Assembly (NCBI RefSeq): GCF_004114955.1
Contig: NZ_CP030053.1
Span: forward strand, 3,720,001 to 3,784,000
Origin: Bradyrhizobium guangzhouense
GTDB lineage: Bacteria; Pseudomonadota; Alphaproteobacteria; Rhizobiales; Xanthobacteraceae
Direction of reading: 5' to 3'
DNA length: 64,000 nucleotides
A model generated the notes under the pieces. It saw only the letters and a program-made list of their open reading frames with translations, did no database searches and was not told the origin of the DNA. Below are positions 2,116-59,504 of the stretch, piece by piece. A program made the position numbers and the translations under genes. How positions within the stretch are numbered: position 1 is the stretch's first letter; every line of letters starts with the position of its first letter.

Positions 2116-2129
2116 TTGACTTGGATCAA
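2116..2129. promoter_or_regulatory. FixK/FNR-type box (TTGACTTGGATCAA)
   Basis: Near-perfect dyad TTGAC-N4-ATCAA located 66 nt before the decarboxylase start codon. It fits the FixK2 consensus TTGM-N6-KCAA known from Bradyrhizobium. It would control the decarboxylase-exchanger-secreted protein operon. Confidence 0.7.
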
Positions 2130-2195
2130 TGGAGCGACCGGCGCCCAAAGCACGATCCCGCATCATTTTTCGCTTGTAAGGATCGGGAGAGATAT

Positions 2196-4949
2196 ATGTC
2201 CAAGGACACCAAGGCCGCGCAGAAGCGCATCGATCAGTTCTTCTCCGGTCCCGGCGCGCGCGCGGACGATTGGCGCGATCTGGTCGAGGCTGCCAAAGTC
2301 TGGGCGCGCGGCGGCGATCGCGCACCTTATGACGAGGCGCTGGCCAATCTGTCGGTGACGGAAGAATTCCACGGCTATCCCGGCCTGCAATTGATGGCGG
2401 CCCTGCGCGAGGCAGCCTCGTCAGGCGATGCGGCCGCCTCGCGCTCGCTTGCGACCCGGATCACCCAGGCGTTGGCCACGCGATCCTTCCGCCAGCATGC
2501 CGGCGATTGGAATGCGAAGGATGATGGCAATGGCGATGCGCCCGAACTGGCGTCGCCCACCTTCGCCGGGCATAAGGCGCGCCGACCCTATTTCGAGACC
2601 TTGATCGTCACCGGCGTGTCATCCAGCCAATGGCCGGCTCTCGCGGCCGAATGGCGCAAGCTGCGCCGTCCAGAAGACGGCTTCATTTACGAGCCGGTCA
2701 TCGTCGGCAGTCTCGAAGACGCCTTCTGCGCGACCATGCTCAATCCGAATCTGGGGGCCGTCATCATCAACGAGGGCTTTGGCCTTCGTTCCCGGCACGA
2801 TGCGCCGGTGCTCCGTTCGCTCACGGCGACGGCCGGTCTCAAGGACGAATCCGATGCCTCCGCGCTGCGTCTCGCCCAGATCATCAAGCGCGTCAGGCCG
2901 GAGCTCGATCTCTACATGATCTCGAACCGCGACGTCGAGGAACTCGCCGGCAATCCCGAGGCCAACGTGGTTCGCCGCATTTTCTATTCGGTGGAAGAGC
3001 TGTTGGAACTGCATCTGTCGATCCTCGAAGGCATCCAGGACCGCTACGACACGCCGTTCTTCGACAATCTCAAGAAATACGCCCAGCGCCCCATAGGCAC
3101 TTTCCACGCGCTGCCGATCGCCCGCGGCAAGTCGATCTTCAAATCCGACTGGATCCGCGACATGGGCGAGTTCTATGGCCCGAACCTGTTCCTGGCCGAG
3201 AGCAGCGCGACCACCGGCGGTCTCGACAGCATGCTGGAGCCGACCGGCAACATCAAGAAGGCCCAGGAGAAGGCGGCGAGGGCGCTTGGCGCCGACCGCG
3301 TCTTCTTCGTCACCAACGGCACCTCGACCTCGAACAAGATGGCGGTGCAGGCGCTGCTCGCGCCGGGCGACATCGCGATCGTCGATCGCAACTGCCACAA
3401 GTCGCACCATTACGGCATGGTGCTCGCCGGCGCGCAGCCGCTCTATGTCGAAGCGTTCCCGATGACGGAATATTCGATGTATGGCGCAGTGCCGCTCAAG
3501 ACGATCAAGCAGGCCCTGCTCAACGCCAGGGCCGAGGGCCGGCTCGATCGCGTCAAGATGCTGGACCTGACCAACTGCACCTTCGACGGCCACATCTACA
3601 ACACCCGCCGGGTGATGGAGGAATGCCTCGCCATCAAGCCGGATCTGATCTTCCTGTGGGACGAGGCCTGGTTCGGCTTCGCGCGCTTCTCGCCGTTCCT
3701 GCGCCGCCGCACCGGCCTCGGCGCCGCCAACGACATCGAGGCGTGGATGCGTGATCCCAAATCGGTCGATGCCTATGAGAAGCAACAGGCTCAGCTCGGC
3801 AAGACCCCGACGGACGAGGTGCTGCTCAACACGAGGCTCGTTCCCGATCCCAGGAAGATCCGCTTGCGGGTGTACCAGACCAACTCGACCCATAAGTCGA
3901 TGTCGGCGATCCGGCAGGGTTCGATGCTGTCGGTCAAGGACGTCGAATTCCACACGGTCGAGCAGCAATTCAAGGAGGCCGTGTTCACGCATGCCTCCAC
4001 CAGCCCGAACCAGCAGCTCATCGCCAGCCTCGACATCTCGCGGCGGCAGATGGAGCTGGAGGGCTATGGCCTCGTCGCCAATGCGATCGAGATCGCGTTC
4101 GCGATCCGGCAGGCGGTGAACAACAATCCGCTGCTCTCGAAATACTTCCGCATCCTCGGCGCCGACGGCATGGTGCCGGCGCAGTATCGCCAGACCGGCT
4201 TCACGGATTATCTCTCGGCTGGCGTGAACTGGGCGACGACACTGAAGAGCCTCGACGAGGACGAGTTCTGCCTCGATCCGACCCGCATGACGCTGGTGTG
4301 CGGCATGGCCGGTTTCGACGGGACCCAGTTCAAGGGCATTCTCGCCAACGACTACAATATCCAGGTCAACAAGACCTCGCGCAACTCGGTCCTGGTCCAG
4401 TCCAACATCAACAACACCCGCAGCGACGTCGCGCATCTCATTCGCGTCCTCGCCGAGATCGCAGGCGAGGTCGATCGGGGGCTGGTGCAAGGCGGCGAAA
4501 ATGCGCGCAAGACGTTCGAGGCGCGCGTCAAGAGCCTGATGAAGGACGTGCCCGACTTGCCGAACTTCTCGCACTTCCATCCGAGCTTCCGCGGTGATTC
4601 CGGCACCAGGACCAACGAGGGCGACATCCGCAGCGGCTTCTATGCCGCCTATGACGTCGCCGGCTGCGAGCATATCCGCCTCAACGATCCCGAGATCGAC
4701 CGTCGGCTGAAGGCCGGCCCCGAGCTGGTCTCGGCGAATTTCGTGATCCCTTATCCGCCGGGCTTCCCGATCATGGTGCCGGGCCAGGTGATCACCCAGG
4801 AGACCATCGACTTCATGCGCAAGCTCGATGTGAAGGAGATCCATGGCTACGACGCCAAGGAGGGGCTCAAGCTCGTGCGCACGGAGGCTCTGGCGAAGCT
4901 CGGCCGGCCCAAGCCCGGCACGCAGCCGAAGCTCAAGGCCGCGTCATAG
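2196..4949 (+). CDS. Orn/Lys/Arg decarboxylase-family PLP enzyme (large form)
   Basis: A 917-residue fold-type I PLP decarboxylase of the bacterial ornithine/lysine/arginine group; E. coli members are about 710-755 residues, so this one is longer, mainly at the N terminus. The PLP lysine is Lys567 in the context STHKS, and the cofactor aspartate is Asp489 in WDEAWFGF. Residues 340-420 carry the substrate-side FVTNGTSTSNK block. These enzymes remove the alpha-carboxylate of a basic amino acid, consume a proton and form a polyamine. Which amino acid is used cannot be decided here. The ATG at 2196 was chosen because GGGAGAG lies 5 nt upstream; a frame open from 2103 would run through the FixK-type box. 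The exchanger gene follows after 18 nt, so the product is probably exported or its substrate imported by that protein. Confidence 0.88.
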   Translation: MSKDTKAAQKRIDQFFSGPGARADDWRDLVEAAKVWARGGDRAPYDEALANLSVTEEFHGYPGLQLMAALREAASSGDAAASRSLATRITQALATRSFRQHAGDWNAKDDGNGDAPELASPTFAGHKARRPYFETLIVTGVSSSQWPALAAEWRKLRRPEDGFIYEPVIVGSLEDAFCATMLNPNLGAVIINEGFGLRSRHDAPVLRSLTATAGLKDESDASALRLAQIIKRVRPELDLYMISNRDVEELAGNPEANVVRRIFYSVEELLELHLSILEGIQDRYDTPFFDNLKKYAQRPIGTFHALPIARGKSIFKSDWIRDMGEFYGPNLFLAESSATTGGLDSMLEPTGNIKKAQEKAARALGADRVFFVTNGTSTSNKMAVQALLAPGDIAIVDRNCHKSHHYGMVLAGAQPLYVEAFPMTEYSMYGAVPLKTIKQALLNARAEGRLDRVKMLDLTNCTFDGHIYNTRRVMEECLAIKPDLIFLWDEAWFGFARFSPFLRRRTGLGAANDIEAWMRDPKSVDAYEKQQAQLGKTPTDEVLLNTRLVPDPRKIRLRVYQTNSTHKSMSAIRQGSMLSVKDVEFHTVEQQFKEAVFTHASTSPNQQLIASLDISRRQMELEGYGLVANAIEIAFAIRQAVNNNPLLSKYFRILGADGMVPAQYRQTGFTDYLSAGVNWATTLKSLDEDEFCLDPTRMTLVCGMAGFDGTQFKGILANDYNIQVNKTSRNSVLVQSNINNTRSDVAHLIRVLAEIAGEVDRGLVQGGENARKTFEARVKSLMKDVPDLPNFSHFHPSFRGDSGTRTNEGDIRSGFYAAYDVAGCEHIRLNDPEIDRRLKAGPELVSANFVIPYPPGFPIMVPGQVITQETIDFMRKLDVKEIHGYDAKEGLKLVRTEALAKLGRPKPGTQPKLKAAS

Positions 4950-4967
4950 GTATCGGAGGGGACCGAC

Positions 4968-6668
4968 ATGCAGGGATTTTTCACGTTCCTTCAGCAGAAC
5001 CCGTATCTGCTGCTGTTCTTCGTCGTCGGCCTCGCCGTCTATATTGGCCGGGCCAGCATCAAGGGTTACGGCCTCGGCATGGTCGCCGGCGCCATTGTGG
5101 TGGGCGCCGGCCTGTCGGTGTGGTCGTCGACCTACGGCGTCAAGCTCGAGCTGAATAATTTTGCCAAGAGTCTGTTCTACTATCTCTTCATGTACGGGGT
5201 GGGCCTGCGTGTCGGGCCGTCCTTCATCAACAGCCTGAAAGGTGACGGGCTGAAGTTCTGCATATTGGCGCTGGTGTCGAGCGTGCTCGGCCTCGCGCTG
5301 GTCGTTCTTGGTGCCAAGATCTTCGATCTTCCTGTTGGTGCCGCGGGCGGCATGCTGGCGGGCTCGCAGACGATGTCCGCGGCGATCGGCTCGGCTGAGC
5401 AGGCAATCACCTCGGGCGTCGTCAAATTGCCCGAAGGCATGAAGCCCGAGCAGGCTTCCGGCATGATCGCGCTGTCCTACGGTATCACCTACATCTGGGG
5501 CACCGTCGGCATCATCCTGATCTGCAAATATCTGCCGCGCTGGTGGGGCGTCGACGCCCGGGCCGCCGCGAAGCAATATGAGCAGGAATTCGGGGTCAAG
5601 GATCTCGAAGGCGGCGGCCTCACCGGCTATCGCCAGTTCGGCCTGCGCGCGTACAGACTGGAGAACCCGGCCACGGCGGGCATCAGCATCGCCAAGTTCC
5701 GCGCGATGAATCCGGAATACCGGATCGTCAACGTCGGACGGAACGGCGAGCCGCAAGGCGCCGATGCCGATCTCGTGCTGCAAAAGGGCGATATCGTCGC
5801 CTTGGGCGGCTCGACCGAGCATCTCACCGACAAGATGGGCCTGATCGGTCCCGAGGTCGCGGATGCCAAAACACTCGGCGTTCCCATGGACCAGGCGGAC
5901 ATCCTCATCACCAACAAGGACATGGTGGGACGGACGTTCGAATCCTTCCGCGATACGGCGATTGCCGGCCAGTTGCAGGTTACCAAGGTCGAGCGCGGGG
6001 GCGTGCAGATCCCGGCCGGTCTCAAGACCAAGCTGGAGCGGATGGACATCGTCTCGGTCGTCGGCCTCAAGTCTGCGGTCAACGAGCTCGGCGACATGTG
6101 GGGCCGCATTGCGCGCACCAACACGTCGACCGACCTGCTGACGCTGGCGACCGGCATGATCCTCGGCTTCCTGATCGGCATGGTGGACTTCCCAGCGTTC
6201 GGCGCCAGGGTTGGCCTCGGCAATGCCGGCGGCCTCCTGCTGTCGGGTGTGATCGTGTCCTCGATCGTGTCGCGGCTCCGGTTCTTCGGCAATACGCCGA
6301 ACGCGGCTCGCAACGTGCTCGAAGATCTCGGCCTCGTCGTGTTCGTTGCCATCGTCGGCGTCAATGCCGGCGCCGGGCTGCTGTCGCAGCTGACGGGTGC
6401 GATTGCCCTCAAGATCTTCATCGTCGGGTTCATTGCCTGCACGATCCCGCCGTTCATCGTCTGGGCGATCGGCTTCCACGTCTTCAAGATCAACCCGGCG
6501 GTGCTGATGGGCGGCGTTGCCGGCGCGCGGTCGCATTCCGGTCCGTGCCGGGAGGCCGCGGTCGAAATTCAGAGCTCCGTGCCCTGGATCGGATTCCCGG
6601 TCGGCTATGCCGTCTCGGGCATCCTGCTGACCATCTTCGGCTATTTCGCAATGCTGCTGGCGCAGTAA
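4968..6668 (+). CDS. AspT/YidE-type amino acid exchanger (AAE family)
   Basis: A 566-residue inner-membrane protein with the duplicated architecture of aspartate:alanine exchangers. A hydrophobic N-terminal half (residues 10-180, with the loop motif GSQTMSAAIGSA) is followed by two cytoplasmic RCK_C/TrkA_C domains (about 205-285 and 290-370), then a second hydrophobic half (about 385-565) with the related motif GVAGARSHSGPC. AspT in Tetragenococcus exchanges aspartate for alanine next to an aspartate decarboxylase. Here the adjacent enzyme is instead an Orn/Lys/Arg-type decarboxylase, so the exchanged pair may differ. GGAGGGG lies 7 nt before the ATG. It is the second gene of the FixK-box operon. 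Confidence 0.88.
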   Translation: MQGFFTFLQQNPYLLLFFVVGLAVYIGRASIKGYGLGMVAGAIVVGAGLSVWSSTYGVKLELNNFAKSLFYYLFMYGVGLRVGPSFINSLKGDGLKFCILALVSSVLGLALVVLGAKIFDLPVGAAGGMLAGSQTMSAAIGSAEQAITSGVVKLPEGMKPEQASGMIALSYGITYIWGTVGIILICKYLPRWWGVDARAAAKQYEQEFGVKDLEGGGLTGYRQFGLRAYRLENPATAGISIAKFRAMNPEYRIVNVGRNGEPQGADADLVLQKGDIVALGGSTEHLTDKMGLIGPEVADAKTLGVPMDQADILITNKDMVGRTFESFRDTAIAGQLQVTKVERGGVQIPAGLKTKLERMDIVSVVGLKSAVNELGDMWGRIARTNTSTDLLTLATGMILGFLIGMVDFPAFGARVGLGNAGGLLLSGVIVSSIVSRLRFFGNTPNAARNVLEDLGLVVFVAIVGVNAGAGLLSQLTGAIALKIFIVGFIACTIPPFIVWAIGFHVFKINPAVLMGGVAGARSHSGPCREAAVEIQSSVPWIGFPVGYAVSGILLTIFGYFAMLLAQ

Positions 6669-6687: not shown

Positions 6688-7122
6688 ATGAAAAAATTGA
6701 CCGTCGGAGCTGCGCTGGCCGCTTCGCTTGCGATCCTTGCCGGATTCAGCACGCCCTCGCGTGCCGACACCGGCCAGGTCGCCGTCGTCTTCACCAAGGG
6801 CGGCTTCATCGTCGGCGTCGGCGGCGGGGAGGGCGTGCTGCTCTACAGGGGCCACAAATATCCCTTCACGGTGTCAGGGATGAGCGTCGGCTTTACCGTC
6901 GGCGCCTCGACCACGAAGCTGGTCGGACGCGCGCTCAATCTGAAGGGACCGCAGTCGATCGAAGGCTCCTATGCCGCGGGCGGCGCAGGCGGCGCCGTTG
7001 CAGCCGGTGCCGGCGCCGTGCAGCTGCAGAACGGCAATGGCGTGATCCTACAGCTCAGCGGACCGAAGGTCGGCGCGGAGCTTTCGGCCGCCGTCGGCGG
7101 CGTCACGATCCGGCTCAAATAG
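6688..7122 (+). CDS. Small secreted protein, paralogue of the protein at 15032-15490
   Basis: 144 residues with a clear Sec signal peptide (about residues 1-26, ending ...PSRA-DT). The mature part is glycine- and alanine-rich and carries the blocks VGVGGGEGVLLYRG, YPFTVSG and a C-terminal GPKxGxEL segment. The same blocks recur in the same order in the protein at 15032-15490, so the two form one family. The glycine-rich C-terminal part is reminiscent of EipA/SYLF-type periplasmic lipid- or envelope-associated proteins, but I cannot assign it. It ends an operon with the decarboxylase and the AspT-like exchanger, 19 nt after the latter, and is followed by a strong terminator. An envelope role in acid or anaerobic stress is inference. 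Confidence 0.75.
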   Translation: MKKLTVGAALAASLAILAGFSTPSRADTGQVAVVFTKGGFIVGVGGGEGVLLYRGHKYPFTVSGMSVGFTVGASTTKLVGRALNLKGPQSIEGSYAAGGAGGAVAAGAGAVQLQNGNGVILQLSGPKVGAELSAAVGGVTIRLK

Positions 7123-7194: not shown

Positions 7195-7995
7195 TCAATA
7201 TCGCTCTTCGACGAACTTCCGCCCGCGCAGGCTGGCCTGGTCGTTGTAGCGTCCCTTGTGGGAGCGAGGCGGCAGCTTGACCTTCTCGCGCTTGACCTTC
7301 TTGTAGGGGATCGTCTGCAGGATATGCGAGATGACGTTGAGCCGCGCACGCCGCTTGTCGTCGGAGCGGATCAGCCGCCATGGCGCATGCTTGGTGTCGG
7401 TCGCCTCGAACATCATGTCCCGCGCACGGGAATAGTCGTACCAGCGGCCGAATGACTCGGTGTCCATCGGGCTCAACTTCCATTGCCGCAGCGGATCCTC
7501 GATCCGCGCCTTGAAGCGGAGTTCCTGCTCCTCCATCCCGACCTCGAGCCACAGCTTGATCAGGATGATGCCGGCATCCACGGCGAATTTCTCGACCAGC
7601 GGGCACAATTCCAGGAAGCGCTTGTGGTCGGCCGGCGAACAGAAGCCCATGACATATTCGACGCCGGCGCGGTTGTACCAGCTGCGGTCGAAGATCACGA
7701 TCTCGCCGCCGGCGGGATACTGTTCGATATAGCGTTGCAGGAAGAGTTGGGATTTCTGCCGGTCGGAAGGTGCGGGCAGGGCACAGACACGGAAGACGCG
7801 CGGGCTCACCTTTTCGGTCAAGGCCTTGATGGTGCCGCCCTTGCCGGCAGCGTCGCGGCCCTCGAAGAGGATGATCACCTTGAGTCTCTGCGCTTTGACC
7901 CACTCCTGAAGGTGACACAGCTCGACCTGGAGCTTTTCGAGCTCCTTCTCGTAGACTTTGCGCTTCATTTTCTCCGCGGACTTGTCCTTCGCCAT
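7195..7995 (-). CDS. ppk2: Polyphosphate kinase 2 (PPK2)
   Basis: 266 residues, the usual size of a one-domain PPK2. The Walker A motif GRDAAGKGG lies at residues 46-54, and the Walker B/lid region IFDRSWYNRA at 101-110; the family's SPMD and WY(D) blocks follow (about 180-195). The enzyme transfers phosphate between polyphosphate and nucleoside diphosphates in the cytoplasm, preferentially making NTPs from polyP in most PPK2 proteins. The gene lies 40 nt downstream of a hypothetical gene on the same strand whose promoter region holds a perfect FixK/FNR-type box, so PPK2 may be induced at low oxygen as an energy reserve enzyme. Confidence 0.93.
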   Translation of the reverse strand: MAKDKSAEKMKRKVYEKELEKLQVELCHLQEWVKAQRLKVIILFEGRDAAGKGGTIKALTEKVSPRVFRVCALPAPSDRQKSQLFLQRYIEQYPAGGEIVIFDRSWYNRAGVEYVMGFCSPADHKRFLELCPLVEKFAVDAGIILIKLWLEVGMEEQELRFKARIEDPLRQWKLSPMDTESFGRWYDYSRARDMMFEATDTKHAPWRLIRSDDKRRARLNVISHILQTIPYKKVKREKVKLPPRSHKGRYNDQASLRGRKFVEERY

Positions 7996-8035: not shown

Positions 8036-8488
8036 TCACTTGTCCCATGAAATGGTCACGCCGATATCGCCCGGCATGCCGCCCGGAAATTCGATGACCT
8101 GATAGGCAATGCGATAACCGCGCGGCTGAAGATAGTCGGCCCAGAGCTGGAAGATCTCCTTGGGGATCCCGGTCAGCGTGTTTTCCCAGCCCTTTTCCAT
8201 CTGGTTGATGGCGCGTCCCTTGTCGGTGCAGAGCGAGTTGGGGAAGCGATAGACCATCACCTCGGTGAGGCCGTTTCGCACCGCGCGCTGGATGATGGTC
8301 GCCGCGAGCTTGATCTTCTCCTCCTCGCTCTTGCCGGAGGGCTTGCTCAGGCGCTCGATCAGCGCGTGCTTCTCGGCTTCGGCGGCCGCGGCGAGACGGA
8401 CATACTCTTCCGCCTTCTCGGCCTCCTTCAGTGCCGCCTCTTTGCGGATCTGCGTGGCACTGGGAATGAGTTCGTCAAGCCCGGGCAT
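8036..8488 (-). CDS. Conserved hypothetical protein, PPK2 operon
   Basis: 150 residues with no signal peptide and no membrane segment. Residues 15-65 are charged and alanine/glutamate-rich, predicted as a coiled coil. The C-terminal part (75-150) looks globular and contains VMVYRFPNSLCTDKGRAIN and YRIAYQVIEFPGGMPGD. I do not recognise a characterised family, although such proteins seem common in Bradyrhizobium. The gene starts 67 nt from a perfect FixK/FNR-type box that it shares with the divergent DUF3302 gene, and it is followed after 40 nt by PPK2, so the two are probably co-transcribed. Confidence 0.75.
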   Translation of the reverse strand: MPGLDELIPSATQIRKEAALKEAEKAEEYVRLAAAAEAEKHALIERLSKPSGKSEEEKIKLAATIIQRAVRNGLTEVMVYRFPNSLCTDKGRAINQMEKGWENTLTGIPKEIFQLWADYLQPRGYRIAYQVIEFPGGMPGDIGVTISWDK

Positions 8489-8555: not shown

Positions 8556-8569
8556 TTGATTCAAATCAA
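8556..8569. promoter_or_regulatory. FixK/FNR-type box (TTGATTCAAATCAA)
   Basis: Perfect TTGAT-N4-ATCAA dyad in the divergent region between the hypothetical/PPK2 operon (start 67 nt away on the minus strand) and the DUF3302/HlyD operon (start 59 nt away on the plus strand). One symmetric site could serve both directions. Confidence 0.82.
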
Positions 8570-8628: not shown

Positions 8629-9087
8629 TTGAACGATCAGCTCAATCCAATGGCTCCGCACCATCTGCCGTTCTATCTCGCGCCAGGGAGCGGGACCGAC
8701 ACCTTGATGGTGATCATGGGGGTCTTCCTGATCGGCACCGTGCTGTGGGTCGGCACGCTCTATTGGAAGCTGCACAGTCTGCCGGAGCGGATGGCGCACA
8801 AGTCGCAGAAGCTCCAATTCGAGTTCGTGGCCGTGCTCGGCCTGATCTCGCTGTTCACGCATATGCACATCTTCTGGATTGCGGGCCTCTTGATCGCGCT
8901 GATAGACATACCCGATTTCGGCACGCCGCTGCGCAGCATCGCCGATTCCGTCGAGAAGATTGCCGACGCGACGCCGGAAGGCGCCGCGATGAGCACGGAT
9001 GCTGGCTCGGCGCCCTCGGCTGCCGAGACGCCGCCTTCAACCGACAAGCCGGGCCCCGCGAAGGAAAAGGAGCACAGCCATGTTTGA
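8629..9087 (+). CDS. DUF3302 (YiaW-like) inner-membrane protein
   Basis: About 152 residues with two hydrophobic segments (roughly residues 22-42 and 65-88) and a hydrophilic, alanine/proline-rich C-terminal tail. Size, topology and the HlyD-type partner immediately downstream match the E. coli yiaW-yiaV pair, so DUF3302 is the likely family. The start is uncertain: TTG at 8629 has GGGAGAGG three bases upstream, while ATG at 8650 lacks a ribosome site and TTG at 8584 is too far upstream. Its end overlaps the HlyD-type gene by 8 nt. It probably acts together with that protein in an export or envelope complex. Confidence 0.75.
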   Translation: MNDQLNPMAPHHLPFYLAPGSGTDTLMVIMGVFLIGTVLWVGTLYWKLHSLPERMAHKSQKLQFEFVAVLGLISLFTHMHIFWIAGLLIALIDIPDFGTPLRSIADSVEKIADATPEGAAMSTDAGSAPSAAETPPSTDKPGPAKEKEHSHV

Positions 9088-10312
9088 GCTGATGTTCTGC
9101 TCGCTGCTCACGATCGTTCCCGATTACCTCTATCGCCGCTACGGCCAGGGCAAGCGCTTCGGCAAGGAGATCACCTTCTTCTCGGTCTGGTACGAGCTGC
9201 GCTGGGGCATCACCGGCTGCCTGATGCTGACGATTTCGCTGATCACCATGATCTTCTACTTCCACCCGGCGACGGAGTCGGCGACGCTCTACTTTCGCAC
9301 CGTGCCGATCGTGCCGGAGGGATCGGGCCGGGTTGCCGAAGTGAAGGTCGGCTTCAGCCAGGCGGTGAAGAAGGGCGACGTCCTGTTCACGCTGGATAGC
9401 TCCAAGCAGCACGCCGCATTCGAAACCGCCAAGCGGAAGGTTGCCGAGGTCGACGCCGCGATGCTGACGGCGCAGGCCGACGTGTCCAAGGCGGAAGCGC
9501 AAATTGGCGAGGCGAAAGCCAATCTTCAGCAGGCCAAGGACGAGCTCGACGTCAAGAGCGAGCTACAGCGCCGCAATCCCGGCATTGTCCCGCAACGCGA
9601 CATCGAGAAGCTGCAGGTGCTGGTCGATCAGCGGCAATCCGGCGTTGACGCCGCGACGGCCGCGAAAGAGTCGGCAAGCCTGCAGGTCTCGACTTTGCTG
9701 CCGGCGCAGAAGGCGAGCGCCGCAGCGGCGCTCGATCAGGCCCAAGTCGATCTCGACAAGACCATTGTCCGAGCCGGTGTCGATGGCCGGGTCGAGCAGT
9801 TTCTCATCCGTCCCGGCGACGTCGTCAACCAGTTGATGCGTCCGGCAGGGGTTCTCATTCCGGAGGAAGCGGGCCGAAAGATGCTGCAAGCCGGTTATGG
9901 GCAGATCGAGGCGGGTGTGTTGAAGCAAGGCATGGTGGCGGAAGCTGCCTGCATCTCCAAACCCTGGGTCATCATCCCCATGGTGATCACGACGGTGCAG
10001 GATTACATCGCCGCGGGACAGTTCCAGGCGGGACAGCAATTGCTCGAGGTTCAGAACGCTCAACAGCCGGGCACGATCCTCGTGTTTCTCGAGCCGCTCT
10101 ACAAGGATGGGCTCGACGGTGTCACACCGGGGAGCAGTTGCGTCGTCAACGCCTATACGAGCAATCATGAGGAGATTTCTGCCGAGCATACCAGCACCAG
10201 CCGGGCCTTCGCGCTCCACGTCGTCGATGGTGTCGGCCTCGTGCATGCGATGCTGCTGCGAATCCAGGCCTTGCTGATGCCCATCAAGACTCTGGTCTTG
10301 AGCGGTCATTGA
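9080..10312 (+). CDS. HlyD-family membrane fusion protein (YiaV-like)
   Basis: 410 residues. A hydrophobic anchor lies near the N terminus (about residues 42-65). It is followed by a barrel-sandwich/biotinyl-lipoyl half motif (GSGRVAEVKVGFSQAVKKGDVLF is the region around 80-102), a long alanine/lysine/glutamate coiled coil (about 110-230) and the second lipoyl half around 235-260. Such proteins bridge inner-membrane transporters to the outer membrane, but no pump or outer-membrane channel gene lies nearby. With the preceding DUF3302 gene it forms the YiaW/YiaV arrangement of E. coli. The ATG at 9080 was chosen because it overlaps the upstream stop and follows AAGGAG. Confidence 0.85.
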   Translation: MFELMFCSLLTIVPDYLYRRYGQGKRFGKEITFFSVWYELRWGITGCLMLTISLITMIFYFHPATESATLYFRTVPIVPEGSGRVAEVKVGFSQAVKKGDVLFTLDSSKQHAAFETAKRKVAEVDAAMLTAQADVSKAEAQIGEAKANLQQAKDELDVKSELQRRNPGIVPQRDIEKLQVLVDQRQSGVDAATAAKESASLQVSTLLPAQKASAAAALDQAQVDLDKTIVRAGVDGRVEQFLIRPGDVVNQLMRPAGVLIPEEAGRKMLQAGYGQIEAGVLKQGMVAEAACISKPWVIIPMVITTVQDYIAAGQFQAGQQLLEVQNAQQPGTILVFLEPLYKDGLDGVTPGSSCVVNAYTSNHEEISAEHTSTSRAFALHVVDGVGLVHAMLLRIQALLMPIKTLVLSGH

Positions 10313-10408: not shown

Positions 10409-12304
10409 ATGAGCGGGCGCAGATCCGGGGTGTCGGTCAAGCCGGGTGCTGTTTGGGTTGCGTGGCTCGGGCTCGGCCTGTTGCTGACGGCCTGCGTTCT
10501 CTCCGGCAGCGCCGATGCCGCCCAGCGCAGCGCGCGCGGTGAGCCCAAGCGTGTGCTCATATTGCATTCTTTCGGCCGCGAATTCCGCCCCTGGAGCGAG
10601 TATGCGCGGAGCATCAAGGCCGGGCTCGAGCAGCGATCGTCCTGGCCGCTCGACATCCAGGAACACACGCTGCTCAGTGCGCGATTCAACAATCCCGGCC
10701 CGGAAGCGCCCTTCGTCGAATATCTCGCCTCGCTCTATCAAGGCGCACCGCCCGACATCGTGATCAGCATCGGTGCTCCGGCGGCGCGCTTCGCGCAGCG
10801 CTATCGCGCCAAGCTTTTTCCCGATACACCGATGGTGCTGACCGTGGTCGAGGAGCGGCTGGTGGATCGCTCCGATCTCACCGACAACGACGTCGTTGTG
10901 TCGGCCCGCCTCGATTTCATGGCGGTGTTTGACAATATCCTGCGCGTCCTGCCGGACACCAAAGCCGTCGCCATTGTGATAGGAGCATCGCCGCTCGAGA
11001 AATTCTGGATCGACGCATTGAAGCGGGATTTGATTCCGCTCGGAAATCGTCTCGAGCTCGTTTGGCTTTCTGACCTGTCGTTCCAGGAGATTCTCGAACG
11101 CGCGGCCAAGCTTCCGCCCCACACTGTGCTGTTCTGGGGGCTGATGTCGGTCGATGCCGCTGGCGTCATGTACGAGGGTGACCTCGCCTTGCGAAGCCTG
11201 CGCGCGGTCGCCAACGCGCCTATTTTCTCCTACCAGGACCCTTTTTTCGGCGGCGGCACCGTTGGCGGCCCGATGCAGCTCACGGCGGAGACGAGCCGCA
11301 AGACGGTCGATGCCGTGATGCGAATTCTCGGAGGCGAGAAACCGTCCGCCATCAAGTACGAGCCGATCGAATTCGGGCGGCCGAAATACGACTGGCGCGA
11401 ATTGCAGCGCTGGGGCATCAGCGAAACTAGCCTGCCTCCCAACAGTGAAATCCTGTTTCGCGAGCCGACCATCTGGGAGCGCTATCGCGGGCAGATGCTG
11501 CTGATTGCTGCGATCATCTTGGTGCAGGCCGGCCTGATCAGCGGATTGTTACATGAGCGCAACGGCCGCCGGGTCGCGGAGATCGAGTCGCGACGACGCC
11601 TCGCCGAGCTTGCCCACGCCAACCGCTATTCGTCCGTCGGAGAGTTGACGACCTCGATCGCGCATGAGCTCAATCAGCCGCTGGGCTCGATCCTGACCAA
11701 CGCCGAGACAGCCGAGCTCATGCTGCAGGGAAATTCACCCGACATCAACGAGATCCGGCTGATCCTCGCCGATATCAGGCGGGACGATCAGCGGGCGAGC
11801 GAGGTCATCCGCCGGCTGCGCAGCGTCCTGAAGAAGACGCCGTTCGAGATCAAGAATATCGAACTCAACGAGACGGTCCGGGAAGCGGTCGGCCTCGCCA
11901 GGGCCGTCGCCGAGGGACGTCGGATCACGCTGATCTATACCCCGGTGTTGGCCGATCTGCGCGTCAAAGGTGATCCCATCCAGCTTCAGCAGGTCGTTCT
12001 CAACTTGATCATCAATGCGATGGACGCGATCACCGATGCGAACGCCGGCAAGCGCGAGGTCAGCGTCTGGACCGTGCGCGCCGGCAAAGAGTCTGAGGTC
12101 AATGTCGTCGATACCGGACCGGGTGTGGCGGCGTCCGATCTCGCCCATGTGTTCGATCCCTTCTTTTCCACCAAGCCTCAAGGCATGGGCATGGGACTTG
12201 CGATCGCAAGGACCATCGTCGAGGCCCACCACGGCACGATCAACGCGACCAACCAGCAGGCGGGTGGGGCACGGTTCACCATCCGGCTGCCGCTCCTCGG
12301 TTGA
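10409..12304 (+). CDS. Sensor histidine kinase with ABC substrate-binding-like periplasmic domain
   Basis: 631 residues. An N-terminal signal/anchor (about 12-37) is followed by a periplasmic region (about 45-350) resembling the ABC_sub_bind family, with ILHSFGREFRPWSEY near its start. A transmembrane helix (about 364-383) leads to HisKA with His419 in SIAHELNQPLG, and a HATPase domain with NAMDAI, DTGPGV and GMGMGLAI motifs (about 530-620). It should sense a small ligand or envelope state and phosphorylate a response regulator. No regulator gene is adjacent, so it is an orphan kinase. A GGCGGAGGCGAG stretch precedes the ATG. The FixK-type box and DUF3300 operon follow immediately downstream. 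Confidence 0.9.
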   Translation: MSGRRSGVSVKPGAVWVAWLGLGLLLTACVLSGSADAAQRSARGEPKRVLILHSFGREFRPWSEYARSIKAGLEQRSSWPLDIQEHTLLSARFNNPGPEAPFVEYLASLYQGAPPDIVISIGAPAARFAQRYRAKLFPDTPMVLTVVEERLVDRSDLTDNDVVVSARLDFMAVFDNILRVLPDTKAVAIVIGASPLEKFWIDALKRDLIPLGNRLELVWLSDLSFQEILERAAKLPPHTVLFWGLMSVDAAGVMYEGDLALRSLRAVANAPIFSYQDPFFGGGTVGGPMQLTAETSRKTVDAVMRILGGEKPSAIKYEPIEFGRPKYDWRELQRWGISETSLPPNSEILFREPTIWERYRGQMLLIAAIILVQAGLISGLLHERNGRRVAEIESRRRLAELAHANRYSSVGELTTSIAHELNQPLGSILTNAETAELMLQGNSPDINEIRLILADIRRDDQRASEVIRRLRSVLKKTPFEIKNIELNETVREAVGLARAVAEGRRITLIYTPVLADLRVKGDPIQLQQVVLNLIINAMDAITDANAGKREVSVWTVRAGKESEVNVVDTGPGVAASDLAHVFDPFFSTKPQGMGMGLAIARTIVEAHHGTINATNQQAGGARFTIRLPLLG

Positions 12305-12339: not shown

Positions 12340-12353
12340 TTGATCTCGATCAA
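12340..12353. promoter_or_regulatory. FixK/FNR-type box (TTGATCTCGATCAA)
   Basis: Perfect TTGAT-N4-ATCAA dyad, 56 nt before the ATG of the DUF3300 gene, in the short gap after the sensor kinase gene. It likely drives the DUF3300-DUF2950-secreted protein operon. Confidence 0.82.
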
Positions 12354-12409
12354 CAAACGACCGTGCCCCGGCCTGATGGTCGCGGACGGAAAGCTTTGTG
12401 GAGGTCGTG

Positions 12410-39679: not shown

Positions 39680-39693
39680 TTGATCTTCATCAA
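39680..39693. promoter_or_regulatory. FixK/FNR-type box (TTGATCTTCATCAA)
   Basis: Perfect TTGAT-N4-ATCAA dyad, 80 nt upstream of the RND adaptor gene on the minus strand and 103 nt upstream of the small plus-strand gene at 39797. Confidence 0.8.
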
Positions 39694-46970: not shown

Positions 46971-49256
46971 CTAAGCCGACACGGCTTCGTAGATATCCTC
47001 TTCCTGGGCGGTGTGCATGCGCACCAGCGTCTCGATCGCCTCGATGACGCGTTGCGCGTCCCGCACGATATAGCGGTCGATCTTCTCCGAGGGCATGTCT
47101 TCGACGATGCGGCTGAGCAGCCGGGCAAGATGCAGGATCTCGCGATGCGCCCGGCTCATGGCGGAGAGCCCATGGCGCTCGCGCAGCACCTCCGCGAGCT
47201 TCGGATAGACGCTGTCTTCGTCGTCGCGCTCGTGCTTCACGACGCTGCTCTGAACCAGAAGCTGGGCCTCGCCGATCAACGTCCCGGCCGAGTCCGGCGT
47301 CACGTCGTCCAGGGCATCGACGATTTTGCGCAGGCGGTCCAGGTCCCTGAACAAGGCCTGATGATCGTGACGCAATGTCAGCCCCTGCTCCGCGGTGATG
47401 CGACGGCCGCCAGCGCCGAGGGCCGGAGTGAGTGCGCGCAGTGCGTTCAGGATGACGGCGACATCGATCACCTCCTGCGCGATCGCCGCCGGCACCGGGG
47501 CGAGCCAACCCAGCGTGGCAGCGACCATCGCGACGAGCGACAACCCGATGCCGACGATAATACTTTGCAGGGCAATCCGCCGCGCCCGCTGCGCAATGAT
47601 GATGGCTTCGCCCACACGGTCGAGGCGGTCGGCCAGGATCACCACGTCAGCCGCTTCGGACGACGCGCTGGCGCCCCGCGCCCCGAGCGCGACGCCGACG
47701 TCGGCTACGGCCAGCGCCGGGGCGTCGTTGATACCATCGCCGACCATGATGGTCGGATGCAGCCGTTGCTCGCCCCGCACCGCCTCGACCTTATCGGAGG
47801 GGACGCGGTCGGCCAGCACGGCATCGAGGTCGAGCGCCGCGCCGATGGCCTGTGCCGCCGCGGCGCGATCGCCGGTGACCATCACCATCCGCGCGACGCC
47901 CGCATCGCGGAGCAGCCGGATCGCCCGCGGCGTATCGGCCCGCAACTCGTCCGCCAGAAGCAACGCACCGATGGTACGTCCATCCACGGCGACAAAGACG
48001 ATCAGCGCCGAGCGCCACGAGGCGCGCCGGATTGCCCGCAGCTCCCACGGCGACAACGCGGCATGCGAAGGAAGCATCTGCCGCGCGCCGGCGGTGACCT
48101 GCCGTCCGTCGATCATGCCGCTCAGACCGGAGCCCATCGCCTCCTTGACCTGTTCGGGGGCTTTCAGCTCGAGGCCGCGCTCGACGGCCGCCGCCACCAC
48201 GGTCTTGGCCAGCACGTGATGCGAGGCCTGCTCGAGCGATGCCCCGAGCCGGAGAACCTCGTCCGGGTCGCCTCCCGGTGCAACCTCGATGGAAAGCAGC
48301 CGCGCCCCTCCGACGGTCAGCGTGCCCGTCTTGTCGAACAGCACGGTATGCGCGCGCGCCAAGGCCTCCAGCGCCGCACTGCCCTTGGCCAGGATGCCGC
48401 GGCGCGCCGCTTGCGCGACGCCGGCAATGAAAGCGACCGGTGCAGCCAGGATCAGCGGGCAAGGCGTCGCCGCCACCAGCACGGCAAGACTGCGGGTCAG
48501 ATCCCCGGAGATCCGCCACGCCACGAAGGCGATCGCAATCGTCACCGGCAGGAGAAGCAGCGCGTAGCGATCGGCCAGCCGCACAAAGGGCGCTTTTGCC
48601 GTTTGCGCCGCCGTTACCATGCGCACGATGCCGGCATAGGTGCTCTCGCCGGCCGGCGCAGTCACGGTCAACTCGAACGTCTCGCCCGCATTCAGCGACC
48701 CCGACAGAACGGCACTGCCACGCGCCTTTTCGACCGGGATCGGTTCGCCTGTCACGGCGGACTCGTCGATGGTCGCCGAGGCCGAGCCAACGATACCGTC
48801 GACCGGCACGATCTCGCCGGCGCGCACCAGGAGTTGCTCGCCGACCAAGACGGCATCGACCGGAACCTCTTCGATCCGTTCCCCGCTCTTGCGGTGAGCC
48901 TGGCGCGGCGCGCGATCGACCAGCGAGCGCAGGTCGCGCTCGGCGCGTGCGACCGCGATGTCTTCCAGCACGTTGCCGCCGGAGTACATCAAGGCGACCA
49001 CGGCTCCAGCAAGCGGTTGGCCGAGCGCCAAGGCCGCGCTCATGGATAGCAGCGCTATCGCGTCCACGCCGAGGCGGCCGCTGAGAAAATCCCTGACGAT
49101 CGAGACCGCCAGTCCTCCGATCACGGGTGCCGTGCCTAACTCCCAGGCGAGATCGGCCAGATCGGGCCGGCCAATCACTCGTGCAAGAATTCCACCGGCC
49201 AGTCCCGCGATGGCGATCGTGACCAGGGCCCATCGCAGGACGCGCTCAAACGACAT
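46971..49256 (-). CDS. nia: P1B-5 type metal ATPase with C-terminal hemerythrin domain (Nia-like)
   Basis: 761 residues. Six to eight transmembrane helices and the P1B core: TGE at 169-171, the metal motif TPCP at 264-267, DKTGT at 308-312 and GDGINDAP later. No N-terminal heavy-metal domain. The last about 135 residues (from about 625) are a hemerythrin-like HHE domain with LRHDHQ, KHERDDE, AHREILH and MHTAQEED, enough ligands for a di-iron site. TPCP plus a C-terminal hemerythrin defines P1B-5 ATPases. Sinorhizobium Nia of this type exports Ni and Fe and is expressed in nodules. A FixK/FNR-type box lies 56 nt upstream, and the P2 ATPase gene follows after a 7-nt gap. Confidence 0.93.
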   Translation of the reverse strand: MSFERVLRWALVTIAIAGLAGGILARVIGRPDLADLAWELGTAPVIGGLAVSIVRDFLSGRLGVDAIALLSMSAALALGQPLAGAVVALMYSGGNVLEDIAVARAERDLRSLVDRAPRQAHRKSGERIEEVPVDAVLVGEQLLVRAGEIVPVDGIVGSASATIDESAVTGEPIPVEKARGSAVLSGSLNAGETFELTVTAPAGESTYAGIVRMVTAAQTAKAPFVRLADRYALLLLPVTIAIAFVAWRISGDLTRSLAVLVAATPCPLILAAPVAFIAGVAQAARRGILAKGSAALEALARAHTVLFDKTGTLTVGGARLLSIEVAPGGDPDEVLRLGASLEQASHHVLAKTVVAAAVERGLELKAPEQVKEAMGSGLSGMIDGRQVTAGARQMLPSHAALSPWELRAIRRASWRSALIVFVAVDGRTIGALLLADELRADTPRAIRLLRDAGVARMVMVTGDRAAAAQAIGAALDLDAVLADRVPSDKVEAVRGEQRLHPTIMVGDGINDAPALAVADVGVALGARGASASSEAADVVILADRLDRVGEAIIIAQRARRIALQSIIVGIGLSLVAMVAATLGWLAPVPAAIAQEVIDVAVILNALRALTPALGAGGRRITAEQGLTLRHDHQALFRDLDRLRKIVDALDDVTPDSAGTLIGEAQLLVQSSVVKHERDDEDSVYPKLAEVLRERHGLSAMSRAHREILHLARLLSRIVEDMPSEKIDRYIVRDAQRVIEAIETLVRMHTAQEEDIYEAVSA

Positions 49257-49312: not shown

Positions 49313-49326
49313 TTGAGCAGGATCAA
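49313..49326. promoter_or_regulatory. FixK/FNR-type box (TTGAGCAGGATCAA)
   Basis: TTGA-N6-TCAA, 56 nt upstream of the Nia-like ATPase start on the minus strand. It overlaps the stop codon of the HlyD-type gene, which suggests the ATPase pair has its own promoter inside the larger same-strand cluster. Confidence 0.65.
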
Positions 49327-53676: not shown

Positions 53677-54513
53677 TCAGTGTGACAGCAGCACGGGAAT
53701 TGGCGGCTTCGTCAGAATGCTGCGGGTCGCGCCTCCCAATATGAACTCTCGTAAGCGGGAATGACCATACGCCCCCATGACGAGCAGATCCGCCCTGCGA
53801 GACGCTATCTGAGCCGCCAGAACATCGCCGATGGACCGTCCTGCAGCGTCGACCTCCTCGACGACCACATCGATGCCATGACGCGAGAGATTCTTCGCGA
53901 GCTCGGACGACGAACGCCGGCTCGAAATCGCCTTCTCATTGGTCACCGTGACGACAAACACCTCTCGCGCCTTCTCCAGGATCGGGATCGCATCGGAGAC
54001 CGCACGTGCCGCCGCGCGGCTGAAGTCCCACGCAACGATCACCCTGTTGAGTTCGGCTTCCTTCGAGGCGGAGGCCTCCGGCAGCACCAGCGTCGGTCTT
54101 CCCGAACCGAAGATGATCGCTTCAGCATGCCATTGGTCGTAGGACTCCGGCACCGGCACGATGGTGAGATCACGCAGCCGAGCATAGTCTATCAGGAGGT
54201 TCGGGACCTCGGACGTCAGGCAACGCTCGAGAATGATCTCGTGCAGCAGCGCCGATTTCGTGGAGGCGGCTTCAAAGGTCGCCAGCAGGTCCTGTGCATT
54301 TTTCCTGCTCTTGTGAGCCTCGCCGGCCACGATTGATCCGACATGGCCGACCCCGGACAGGAAAGTCCCGGGTATCTGCACATGAACTTCACAAGAGATC
54401 GCGGCGATGTGCGCGGCAAATGGCGAGATCAGCGAAACGGCGCGGTCGATGACCGAAACCGGCGTCGGTTCGGGATAGCTGGTCAAGGTGAGTAGAACGT
54501 CCCTGATGGCCAT
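53677..54513 (-). CDS. Universal stress protein (UspA family)
   Basis: 278 residues; the C-terminal half (about 140-278) is a full Usp domain with the ATP-binding signature GAYGHSRLREFILGGATRS near the end. The N-terminal half is a degenerate second Usp fold, so the protein looks like a tandem with one active site. Such proteins rise under oxygen limitation and other stresses. Its start lies 57 nt from a degenerate FixK-like site and 143 nt from a full one. It may be the first gene of the USP-ABC exporter unit. Confidence 0.9.
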   Translation of the reverse strand: MAIRDVLLTLTSYPEPTPVSVIDRAVSLISPFAAHIAAISCEVHVQIPGTFLSGVGHVGSIVAGEAHKSRKNAQDLLATFEAASTKSALLHEIILERCLTSEVPNLLIDYARLRDLTIVPVPESYDQWHAEAIIFGSGRPTLVLPEASASKEAELNRVIVAWDFSRAAARAVSDAIPILEKAREVFVVTVTNEKAISSRRSSSELAKNLSRHGIDVVVEEVDAAGRSIGDVLAAQIASRRADLLVMGAYGHSRLREFILGGATRSILTKPPIPVLLSH

Positions 54514-54570: not shown

Positions 54571-54584
54571 TTGATCTAGGTCAG
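54571..54584. promoter_or_regulatory. Degenerate FixK/FNR-like site (TTGATCTAGGTCAG)
   Basis: One half is intact, the other mismatched at the last base, but the spacing to the USP start (57 nt) equals that of the better boxes. Confidence 0.4.
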
Positions 54585-54656: not shown

Positions 54657-54670
54657 TTGACCCAAATCAA
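54657..54670. promoter_or_regulatory. FixK/FNR-type box (TTGACCCAAATCAA)
   Basis: TTGAC-N4-ATCAA dyad, matching TTGM-N6-KCAA, in the divergent region between the USP and AI-2E genes; second site after 54571. Confidence 0.65.
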
Positions 54671-56068: not shown

Positions 56069-56098
56069 CGGCGGGGATACGCCGGATCGGCATCTCCA

Positions 56099-56112
56099 TT
56101 GATGTATCTCAA
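56099..56112. promoter_or_regulatory. FixK/FNR-type box (TTGATGTATCTCAA)
   Basis: TTGA-N6-TCAA with one central half-site mismatch relative to FNR, but within the FixK2 consensus. It lies 70 nt before the Spy-like gene. Confidence 0.55.
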
Positions 56113-56182: not shown

Positions 56183-56689
56183 ATGCGCAAACTCAATCAG
56201 CTCGCTGCGGTTGCTTCAGTAGCGACCGCGATGCTTGTCGCGACCGCCACCGCGCAGCCCTTCGGACCCGGAGGTATGGGATCGGGACGCGACATGATGG
56301 GACCCGGCATGATGATGGGGCCGGGATTCATGGGCCGAGGCGGCCATGCGGGCGCCTGCAGCCCCACGGCTGCCGGCTTTCTCGGATGGCGTATCGATCG
56401 GATCGAGCAGGTCATCAAGCCGACAGAAGCGCAGCGCGCCAAGTTCGATGATCTGAAGGCAGCCTCGGACAAAGCCTCCGAAGCCCTGCGTCTGGCTTGT
56501 CCGACCGAGGTACCGACCACCGCGGTCGGCCGAATGGAATTCATGGAGAAGCGCATGGAAGCCATGCTGCAGTCCGTCAAGACCATGCGCCCCGCGTTCG
56601 AGGCCTTCTACGCGACGCTCAGCGACGAGCAGAAGGCTCGACTGGATTCGCCAACCGAACGCGGCCGCTTCTGGCGACACCTTTGGTGA
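56183..56689 (+). CDS. Spy/CpxP-like periplasmic protein with LTxxQ-type motif
   Basis: 168 residues. A signal peptide (about 1-25, ...TATAQ) precedes a methionine/glycine-rich stretch (GMGSGRDMMGPGMMMG, about 30-50) that could bind metal. The helical Spy-like part follows, with IKPTEAQRAKFDDL and the LSDEQKARLD motif. Spy and CpxP-type proteins chaperone periplasmic proteins or bind metals. It is the first gene of a unit with the DUF302 and metallophosphoesterase genes and has a FixK-type box upstream. Confidence 0.83.
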   Translation: MRKLNQLAAVASVATAMLVATATAQPFGPGGMGSGRDMMGPGMMMGPGFMGRGGHAGACSPTAAGFLGWRIDRIEQVIKPTEAQRAKFDDLKAASDKASEALRLACPTEVPTTAVGRMEFMEKRMEAMLQSVKTMRPAFEAFYATLSDEQKARLDSPTERGRFWRHLW

Positions 56690-56770
56690 AGCTCCAATCG
56701 GGCTGAGACGACGCCGTCGTGTTCAAAGGCAGCGATGCTGTCCACGCACGTGACGAGGAGGAATTGCAAG

Positions 56771-57157
56771 ATGACCTACTATTTCGGCAAAACCCTGCCG
56801 GTCAGCTTCGAAGCAGCGTTGCAGCGCGTAACGGAAGCCCTCAAGCAGGGTGGCTTCGGAATCATCACGGAAATCGACGTCAAGCGAACATTCAAGGAAA
56901 AGCTCGGCACCGATTTTCGAAACTATCGCATCCTCGGAGCATGCAATCCGAAGCTCGCTTACGAGGCCCTGCAACTCGAGGACAAGGTCGGCACAATGCT
57001 GCCGTGCAATGTCGTGGTGCAGGAGGTCGCTCAAGATCGCACCGAGATCGCGGCCATTGATCCCGTCGCGTCGATGCAGGCAATCGACAATCCGGGGCTC
57101 AAAGCATCAGCCCAGCATGTCCAGACGCTGCTACGGAAGGTGATCGAGAGCTTGTAG
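56771..57157 (+). CDS. DUF302 family protein
   Basis: 128 residues starting MTYYFGKTLPVSFEAALQRV. The blocks ITEIDVKRTFKEKLG, YRILGACNPKLAYEALQ and GTMLPCNVVVQEV are diagnostic of DUF302, a compact alpha/beta fold in the cytoplasm or periplasm with no known activity. The conserved ACNP cysteine and LPCNV cysteine are present. GGAGGAATT precedes the ATG by about 9 nt. It follows the Spy-like gene by 81 nt. Confidence 0.9.
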   Translation: MTYYFGKTLPVSFEAALQRVTEALKQGGFGIITEIDVKRTFKEKLGTDFRNYRILGACNPKLAYEALQLEDKVGTMLPCNVVVQEVAQDRTEIAAIDPVASMQAIDNPGLKASAQHVQTLLRKVIESL

Positions 57158-58814: not shown

Positions 58815-58878
58815 CGAGCATCTCGCGCACAGCACCGAGGTATGAGCAGGCAGACACGTCCGCGGCTCGTAAGACGTC

Positions 58879-59445
58879 TCAATCTTTGGAGTGGGGCAAC
58901 ATCCGGATGAGGGTTCGGTCCCGAAATACCCAATGATGAATGAGCGCAGCGATCGCATGAAACGCTGCGATAACCACCAGCGCATGCGCCAGAACTTCGT
59001 GCACTTCCTTCACATTGTGAGCAAAATTCGCGTCCTTGAGCCAGGGTGACGGAATGGCGGCAAGACCGAACAATGGCAATGCATCACCCCGCGCGAACTG
59101 AAGCACAATTCCGGCGACTGGCACTGCGACGAGCAGCGCGTAAAGAGTATAGTGCGCGATCGCGGCGGCAGGATCGCCCCACTTCCCGAGCCAGACCCCA
59201 AATTCGGTCGTTTCCGAAACGGGGGGTGGATTGATCGTTCGCCAGATCAGGCGAGCCACAAGCAGGACGAGAATTGCGATCCCGGCGCTGACATGGACGG
59301 CAAGGCCCGTCTGCCGGGATTCGCCCTTTGGCAAGTCATCGCCAAAAGTGCCCAGTACCCAAGCAAGAATGACAAGAACCACCGTCAGCCAGTGCAGGGT
59401 CTGCGCAATAGCACCATAGTTCCTGTTCGAATTGAGCAGCTGCAT
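58879..59445 (-). CDS. Cytochrome b561
   Basis: 188 residues with four transmembrane helices. Heme ligand candidates are His18 (TLHWL), His about 51 (VHVSAG), and the pair in KEVHEVLAHAL and FHAIAALIHHW (about 148-175), the pattern of bacterial cytochrome b561 (CybB). It moves electrons between quinol and a periplasmic or superoxide acceptor. ATG 59445 was chosen because GAGAGG lies 7 nt upstream. A perfect FixK/FNR-type box is 45 nt upstream, the tightest spacing in the window. Confidence 0.93.
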   Translation of the reverse strand: MQLLNSNRNYGAIAQTLHWLTVVLVILAWVLGTFGDDLPKGESRQTGLAVHVSAGIAILVLLVARLIWRTINPPPVSETTEFGVWLGKWGDPAAAIAHYTLYALLVAVPVAGIVLQFARGDALPLFGLAAIPSPWLKDANFAHNVKEVHEVLAHALVVIAAFHAIAALIHHWVFRDRTLIRMLPHSKD

Positions 59446-59490
59446 GTCGGAGCCTCTCAATCATGATCTTCCAAAACGCAATTCAATGCG

Positions 59491-59504
59491 TTGATGTGAA
59501 TCAA
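59491..59504. promoter_or_regulatory. FixK/FNR-type box (TTGATGTGAATCAA)
   Basis: Perfect TTGAT-N4-ATCAA dyad, 45 nt upstream of the cytochrome b561 ATG. Confidence 0.82.

Follow-up and report, generated by a model that had tools for sequence, protein, structure and literature searches.

A conserved cluster of FixK/FNR-type boxes with a linked FixK2-type paralog suggests a low-oxygen gene island in Bradyrhizobium guangzhouense

In Bradyrhizobium diazoefficiens, the FixL/FixJ pair raises FixK2 when oxygen falls. The box of a class II FNR promoter is centred near -41.5. We analysed a 64,000-nucleotide stretch of Bradyrhizobium guangzhouense (contig NZ_CP030053.1, positions 3,720,001 to 3,784,000; hereafter the window, whose own coordinates are used below) that contains a cluster of FixK/FNR-type boxes (TTGA-N6-TCAA), one of them in front of a DUF3300-DUF2950 gene pair. 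A 2015 survey, in the portion consulted, described DUF3300 and DUF2950 as compelling, nodule-induced, always paired proteins with signal peptides, and found no functional hint in their gene neighbourhood (PMC4653623). The boxes are very probably functional class II sites for FixK2-type Crp/Fnr proteins, driving a low-oxygen island.

The exact pattern occurred eight times in the window, at 2116, 8556, 12340, 39680, 49313, 54657, 56099 and 59491, and nowhere else in it. A preliminary description of this DNA had claimed these eight sites, seven of them intergenic and one at a gene end, and our recount agreed in every position and setting. The window is 88.7% coding by our own gene calls, which came from a codon-bias script and have approximate starts; seven boxes overlap no coding nucleotide, and box 49313 overlaps a gene end (49323-50522) by 4 nt. 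The distance from box centre to start codon was 51-87 nt for seven boxes and 150 nt for box 54657, as expected from the earlier placing of seven boxes shortly before starts and one farther off; the range takes ATG 56183 for the LTXXQ gene, for which our caller chose 56231. In 100 dinucleotide shuffles, the window gave a mean of 0.47 sites and a maximum of 3. The sites are far above chance, as had been stated, although the expectation of ~0.2 given then was somewhat low. A genome-wide scan with the exact pattern yielded 155 sites vs. 33 for the reversed pattern, or ~1.2 sites per 64 kb (8.14 Mb, two contigs: C1, which holds the window, and C2). With this total of 155 as the basis of all cluster statistics, the Poisson probability of at least eight sites was 4e-5 for one window, uncorrected for ~127 windows. 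Among 60 Bradyrhizobium genomes (this one included) there were 8561 sites vs. 1726 reversed-pattern controls, and the lowest ratio in any genome was 3.0. Within the box, TTGATC..GATCAA was preferred. A search for six mismatch forms revealed one-mismatch boxes between genes at 25779, 54571 and 59651, before a PAS hybrid kinase, a universal stress protein (USP) and OpgC, which suggests that the exact pattern undercounts the regulon. The boxes are:

2116..2129, + strand: FixK/FNR box TTGACTTGGATCAA, exact match, before the decarboxylase-exchanger operon
8556..8569, no strand assigned: FixK/FNR box TTGATTCAAATCAA, exact match, between divergent genes
12340..12353, + strand: FixK/FNR box TTGATCTCGATCAA, exact match, before DUF3300-DUF2950
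25779..25792, + strand: one-mismatch box TTGATCCAGATCAT, before the PAS hybrid kinase (26228-28093, domain match)
39680..39693, - strand: FixK/FNR box, exact match, before the RND operon
49313..49326, - strand: FixK/FNR box, exact match, before the hemerythrin-ATPase
54571..54584, - strand: one-mismatch box TTGATCTAGGTCAG, centre ~65 nt before the USP start
54657..54670, - strand: FixK/FNR box, exact match, centre 150 nt before USP
56099..56112, + strand: FixK/FNR box, exact match, before the LTXXQ/DUF302 genes
59491..59504, - strand: FixK/FNR box, exact match, before cytochrome b561
59651..59664, + strand: one-mismatch box TTGCTCTAGATCAA, before OpgC (59699-60901, domain match)

Conservation of the boxes was assessed upstream of orthologs (identity >=50%, coverage >=50%, start within 25 residues) in 112 loci. 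Where the B. guangzhouense gene has a box, the ortholog also had one in 415 of 482 cases; where it has none, a box was found in 42 of 743. A box was present upstream of all 67 orthologs of the first gene of the PPK2 operon, 66 of 67 DUF3302 orthologs, and all 58 DUF3300 orthologs, which are 60-90% identical and come in 57 of 58 cases from records titled Bradyrhizobium. For the decarboxylase the count was 73 of 80, these loci being the best 80 of 409 (70 titled Bradyrhizobium, up to 98% identical, near relatives included). Boxes were also kept upstream of USP (3/3), RND adaptor (2/2) and DUF302 (1/1, 60 nt before the gene) orthologs. The reversed control motif occurred in none of these per-gene ortholog upstream regions. 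In eight of eight orthologous upstream regions, representing six distinct boxes of which four lie in the window, the box core was the best-conserved of 207 registers (conservation 0.75-1.00 vs. 0.26-0.64 elsewhere). By depth of footprint, four of the eight window boxes were covered by 17-80 loci and two by 2-3 loci. A record titled Frankia sp. RB7 (L064) contains a decarboxylase 94% identical to that of the window, with boxes placed as in Bradyrhizobium; the assembly has probably been mislabelled or contaminated.

In an alignment of 356 non-redundant box-to-gene fragments, positions +28 to +34, counted from the box centre, formed an element rich in A/T. The pair A +29/T +33 was found in 35% of the 302 fragments whose start is 45-150 nt away, in 20% one base on, and in ~1-7% elsewhere; in 56 fragments from the B. 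guangzhouense genome the corresponding values were 30%, 25% and 0-11%. The class II FNR/FixK spacing of the boxes as a set, with a putative -10-like TA...T ~29 bp past the centre, is well supported by these alignments. A -10 profile trained without the window boxes had a mean score of 1.23 at the right offset (its own training fragments) and -1.35 elsewhere. With this profile, the gene-facing score was the higher one in 6 of 7 one-way window boxes at exact register, and in 5 of 7 when +-1 was allowed. Scores in the gene direction and the opposite direction were 2.58 vs. -3.55 for box 2116 and 2.60 vs. -1.42 for box 56099, and box 39680 scored higher toward the RND gene. With one base of slack, box 8556 scored among the highest 4% of the null in both directions; at exact register its scores were lower (0.51, 1.65). 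For USP, the one-mismatch box 54571 is better spaced than the exact box 54657.

With 155 sites in the genome some clusters of the palindrome are expected by chance. The shuffles, the intergenic bias, the conservation and the -10 spacing all contradict chance clustering as the explanation; it is refuted for the footprinted boxes and hardly credible for the window as a whole. For boxes 56099 and 59491 the evidence is the motif and where it lies.

Candidate regulators were found in the same genome. A Crp/Fnr helix search gave 28 matches, 19 over the cut-off; the helix was read in all 19, four of which have an E--SR recognition helix (L026 is without it). The genome's FixK2 matches PDB 4i2o (E 4.5e-140) and has Cys at position 183. 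Its locus at C1:5.27 Mb comprises fixNOQP-GHIS, USP/CBS genes, fixL, fixJ, a receiver and fixK2, with order and names read partly by eye; FixL and FixJ are over their NCBIfam cut-offs and ccoN is over its own. A FixK2-type paralog lies just upstream of the window (-5745 to -5062). It is 72% identical to FixK2 over 193 aa, has the same recognition helix (LETVSRAL), and shows the Crp/Fnr fold with E--SR helix required of a FixK2-type protein. It has Ser at position 183 and no cysteine anywhere, and therefore no iron-sulphur motif. We rejected its identification as FixK2 itself because of the Ser in place of Cys183 and because fixLJ are not adjacent to it but at C1:5.27 Mb. Its neighbours include a FixJ-family regulator, which like the paralog lies 4-6 kb upstream of the window and is 42% identical to the genome's FixJ (best solved relative 1yio, then FixJ 5xso), and a receiver-only protein that is 34% identical to the receiver beside fixK2. 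There was no kinase among the ten genes scanned around the paralog; the histidine kinase at 10430-12304 may be a partner. By eye, no clear FixJ-type box was seen between the divergent paralog and FixJ-family genes.

The same intergenic region contains a strongly conserved inverted repeat, CATTG-N10-CAATG (L049:14939-15237, window ~-5061 to -4763; 47 relatives aligned), which may control the gene pair.

The boxes could also be read by an iron-sulphur FnrN/FixK1-type regulator or another Crp/Fnr protein. A candidate of this kind is an FnrN/FixK1-like protein at C1:2334141, whose N-terminus bears a Cys-rich motif and whose recognition helix is of the E--SR type, and FnrN and FixK sites are described as very similar, with one profile for all in Rhizobiales, in the part of PMC4999443 consulted. 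Its gene is 1.4 Mb off, beside its own box cluster and without linkage to the island, and we consider such a reader improbable. The 20 kb stretch that holds the gene of the fourth E--SR protein (C1:3947940) is free of boxes.

For the FixK2-type reading, the following sequence of events is proposed. A drop in oxygen would lead FixL/FixJ to raise FixK2. FixK2, the linked paralog or both would then occupy the boxes, ~41 bp ahead of the start of transcription, and bring in RNA polymerase. The genes turned on in this way would be those of an island with envelope, ion, metal, polyphosphate and stress functions, the DUF3300-DUF2950 operon among them. The oxygen response, the direct binding and the choice of acting regulator are what we infer.

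Several observations weigh against this reading. Seven decarboxylase orthologs, all distant (70-73% identical) and none of them titled Bradyrhizobium, lack the box. The hemerythrin-ATPase box is kept in only 10 of 17 orthologs; the loci used for the right-hand part of the window were taken from 17 of the 21 other genomes with a hemerythrin-ATPase match of >=77% identity (G007, G016, G033 and G045 excluded). The footprints of boxes 39680 and 54657 come from few loci (two and three), and boxes 56099 and 59491 have no first-gene footprint, there being no LTXXQ or cytochrome b561 ortholog among the sampled loci. Profile scoring gave no -10-like element from box 54657 toward USP and an ambiguous direction for box 59491. 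Outside Bradyrhizobium, only 5 of the 16 gene-called loci from the family's other genera had a DUF3300 box (three of the five boxes lie 168-256 nt from the called start, farther than in Bradyrhizobium), as did 1 of 9 gene-called loci class-wide. DUF3300 loci without gene calls numbered 8 of 29 fetched for the family and 5 of 15 for the class, and 1 of these 13 (L224) has a box anywhere. Because of these low counts outside the genus, the link between box and DUF3300 is lineage-limited. The acting regulator is not readable from the DNA because one and the same motif is expected for FixK2, for FixK1/FnrN-type proteins and for the paralog. B. diazoefficiens genes of the same kinds, the RND pair bll5771/bll5772 and the DUF302 gene blr5777, show induction of both RNA and protein at 0.5% O2, which favours the low-oxygen reading, but the table that lists them (PMC6515984 Table 2, the part consulted) leaves them unmarked as direct FixK2 targets; the window RND and DUF302 genes were likened to these by gene kind, not by sequence.

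The preliminary description had taken the boxes as the mark of a low-oxygen regulon, perhaps serving life in nodules. Its first part stood: the boxes are of FixK/FNR type, non-random, mostly conserved where testable and class II as a set, and FixL, FixJ and FixK2 are present in the genome. As a prediction from DNA the low-oxygen regulon is well supported; the nodule part fared less well and is taken up below.

The FixK paralog was found to travel with the island genes. The decarboxylase is present in 25 of the 60 Bradyrhizobium genomes, and a FixK paralog lies 5.8-12.6 kb away in all 25. DUF3300 is present in 41 genomes, each with a FixK match scoring above the FixK2 group; the two genes are within 35 kb of each other in 38, and in the other three they are on different contigs of fragmented assemblies. 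G022 has an island-type FixK without DUF3300. The split between island-type and FixK2 copies was set at E <= 1.1e-91, a value chosen after viewing the list. The island-type copies of 41 other genomes had 29 Ser, 11 Cys and 1 Thr at the position of Cys183, these genomes including G022 (no DUF3300) and G001 and G013 (linkage not visible), whereas 19 of 19 sampled FixK2 orthologs and the genome's own FixK2 had Cys. Among 68 named loci there were 49 Ser, 18 Cys and 1 unread, four of these rows being other paralogs (L081, L084, L089, L187). Ser at this position of the island FixK is common, not universal. The order in which Ser and Cys arose is not settled by the trees, which were midpoint-rooted and, for the residue tree, not fully converged.

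These data bear on a simpler scheme, in which FixK2 alone, through FixLJ, activates all boxes and the linked paralog is a feedback regulator or unrelated. FixK2 is intact with FixLJ and fixNOQP at C1:5.27 Mb, and the FixK-like bll3466 of B. diazoefficiens, likened to the paralog by type only, has been proposed as a RegR-controlled negative feedback regulator of fixK2 (PMC4064962, in the part consulted). Against this scheme stand the physical linkage of the paralog to DUF3300 in 38 of 41 genomes, its usually kept LETVSR helix, and seven DUF3300 genomes (G004, G010, G031, G042, G044, G049, G051) in which the island-type copy is the sole FixK match at E <= 1e-50. A separate fixK2 may be absent from these seven; five of these copies have Cys and group weakly with FixK2, so that the linked copy may itself be FixK2, and two (G031, G051) have Ser. 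Activation by FixK2 alone is plausible, if short of probable.

In the consulted part of PMC9104804, C183S FixK2 was oxidation-resistant and more active in vitro. Because this published variant resists oxidation, a Ser copy of the island FixK should, by analogy, be insensitive to the oxidation that inactivates FixK2. A tentative and rather doubtful extension of the FixK2-type reading is that DUF3300-DUF2950 and their neighbours form a self-contained low-oxygen module with its own FixK2-type activator, mostly with Ser for Cys183 (29/41 plus the B. guangzhouense copy). Such a module might stay on under low oxygen combined with oxidative stress, when FixK2 is inactivated, with control by oxygen and by redox state divided between the two FixK copies. 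DUF3300 and DUF2950 would then be envelope proteins of microoxic life, seen in nodules because nodules are microoxic.

The genes of the predicted island within the window are:

2196..4949, + strand: Orn/Lys/Arg-type decarboxylase, 917 aa (PF01276; no score over the NCBIfam cut-off in any of the 7 matching families)
4968..6668, + strand: AspT-type antiporter (PF06826; TIGR03802 372.9 bits vs. cut-off 546.95)
6688..7122, + strand: small EipA-like protein (PF06577 21.8 bits, under the cut-off of 30.8)
7195..7995, - strand: PPK2 (PF03976)
8036..8488, - strand: 150-aa protein, first gene of the PPK2 operon (no Pfam match)
8650..9087, + strand: DUF3302-like protein (PF11742 20.5 bits, under the cut-off of 32)
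9080..10312, + strand: HlyD-type periplasmic adaptor (domain match; under the NCBIfam cut-off in each matching family)
10430..12304, + strand: sensor histidine kinase without adjacent response regulator (HisKA and HATPase_c; gene calls)
12398..14134, + strand: DUF3300 protein (PF11737)
14131..15048, + strand: DUF2950 protein (PF11453)
15074..15490, + strand: small paralog of the 6688-7122 protein (no Pfam match)
35398..38475, - strand: RND efflux permease (PF00873)
38475..39599, - strand: RND periplasmic adaptor (PF16576)
46971..49256, - strand: heavy-metal P-type ATPase with C-terminal hemerythrin domain (PF00122, PF00702, PF01814; TIGR01525 over cut-off)
53677..54513, - strand: USP (PF00582)
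56183..56689, + strand: LTXXQ (Spy-like) protein (PF07813)
56735..57157, + strand: DUF302 protein (PF03625)
58879..59445, - strand: cytochrome b561 (PF01292)

The small proteins at 6688-7122 and 15074-15490 are 41% identical over 129 aa, and each ends a different FixK-box operon. Both are apparently exported, the signal peptide of the former being judged by eye.

The cluster extends beyond the window. Gene calls on 264 kb placed six more boxes at window coordinates -20893, -8355, -7196, -403, +74395 and +75759, giving 14 boxes in ~97 kb (Poisson P 1e-8, for a single interval picked after the fact). Among the matches listed, which reach C1:2.93 Mb, at least two further box clusters occur in the genome, at C1:2.08-2.13 and 2.32-2.33 Mb; by gene products only, they resemble microoxia-induced clusters in the consulted part of PMC6515984 Table 2. 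A second AspT-type exchanger was found near the first, upstream of it (L049:17852-19540; 538.6 vs. cut-off 546.95, Asp/Ala antiporter model). It has its own box, kept in 45 of 45 orthologs.

Alternatively, the island could be a set of symbiosis genes specific to nodules. DUF3300 and DUF2950 are enriched among root nodule bacteria, and two symbiosis transcriptomes show them induced (PMC4653623, in the portion consulted). We scored nodC in the 60 genomes and found it over the cut-off in 32: in 26 of 41 DUF3300 genomes vs. 6 of 19 others (p 0.028), an association that favours a nodule set, and in 16 of 25 decarboxylase genomes vs. 16 of 35 others (Fisher p 0.20), neither test being corrected for phylogeny. 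No nodC over the cut-off was present in 15 of the 41 genomes with DUF3300 and in 9 of the 25 with the decarboxylase. In B. guangzhouense, nodC and true nifH lie at G000:C2:477130-520307, suggesting a separate symbiosis replicon on this second contig, and the island is on C1. The nodule part of the preliminary description is, on these two p values, weakly supported, and a strictly nodule-specific gene set is quite unlikely. The data agree better with a role in low oxygen generally than with one confined to nodules, although the association of DUF3300 with nodC would allow for some contribution to symbiosis. If low oxygen controls DUF3300/DUF2950, their induction in nodules would be explained.

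What this analysis adds to the preliminary description is how the promoters are spaced, how deep the conservation of the boxes reaches among relatives, the greater extent of the cluster, and a FixK2-type paralog linked to it outside the window. In the literature searched, mostly without subscription papers, no paper joining FixK2 and DUF3300 was found. Among the matches listed, no title or abstract start described an island-linked or Cys-less FixK paralog, most subscription papers being outside the search. The FixK box at 58 of 58 DUF3300 loci, together with the linked FixK, leads to a testable statement: the control of DUF3300/DUF2950 is by low oxygen, not by plant signalling. With its natural Ser in place of Cys183, the linked FixK also allows the importance of the FixK2 redox switch to be tested.

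The window ATPase shares the heavy-metal P-type domain and the C-terminal hemerythrin with P1B-5 ATPases such as Nia of S. meliloti, a likeness in domain content only; Nia is described as nodule-expressed in a title cited in PMC9388753. Set against the FixK2 protein of PDB 4i2o, the island paralog keeps the helix and the close identity to the genome's FixK2 reported above, but has Ser for Cys183 and is not beside fixLJ. With the B. diazoefficiens FixK2 regulon the cluster shares the same box, a FixLJ-FixK2 cascade encoded in the genome and similar content (USP, CBS, chaperones, RND and DUF302); unlike that regulon, it comes with a FixK paralog and a FixJ-family regulator of its own.

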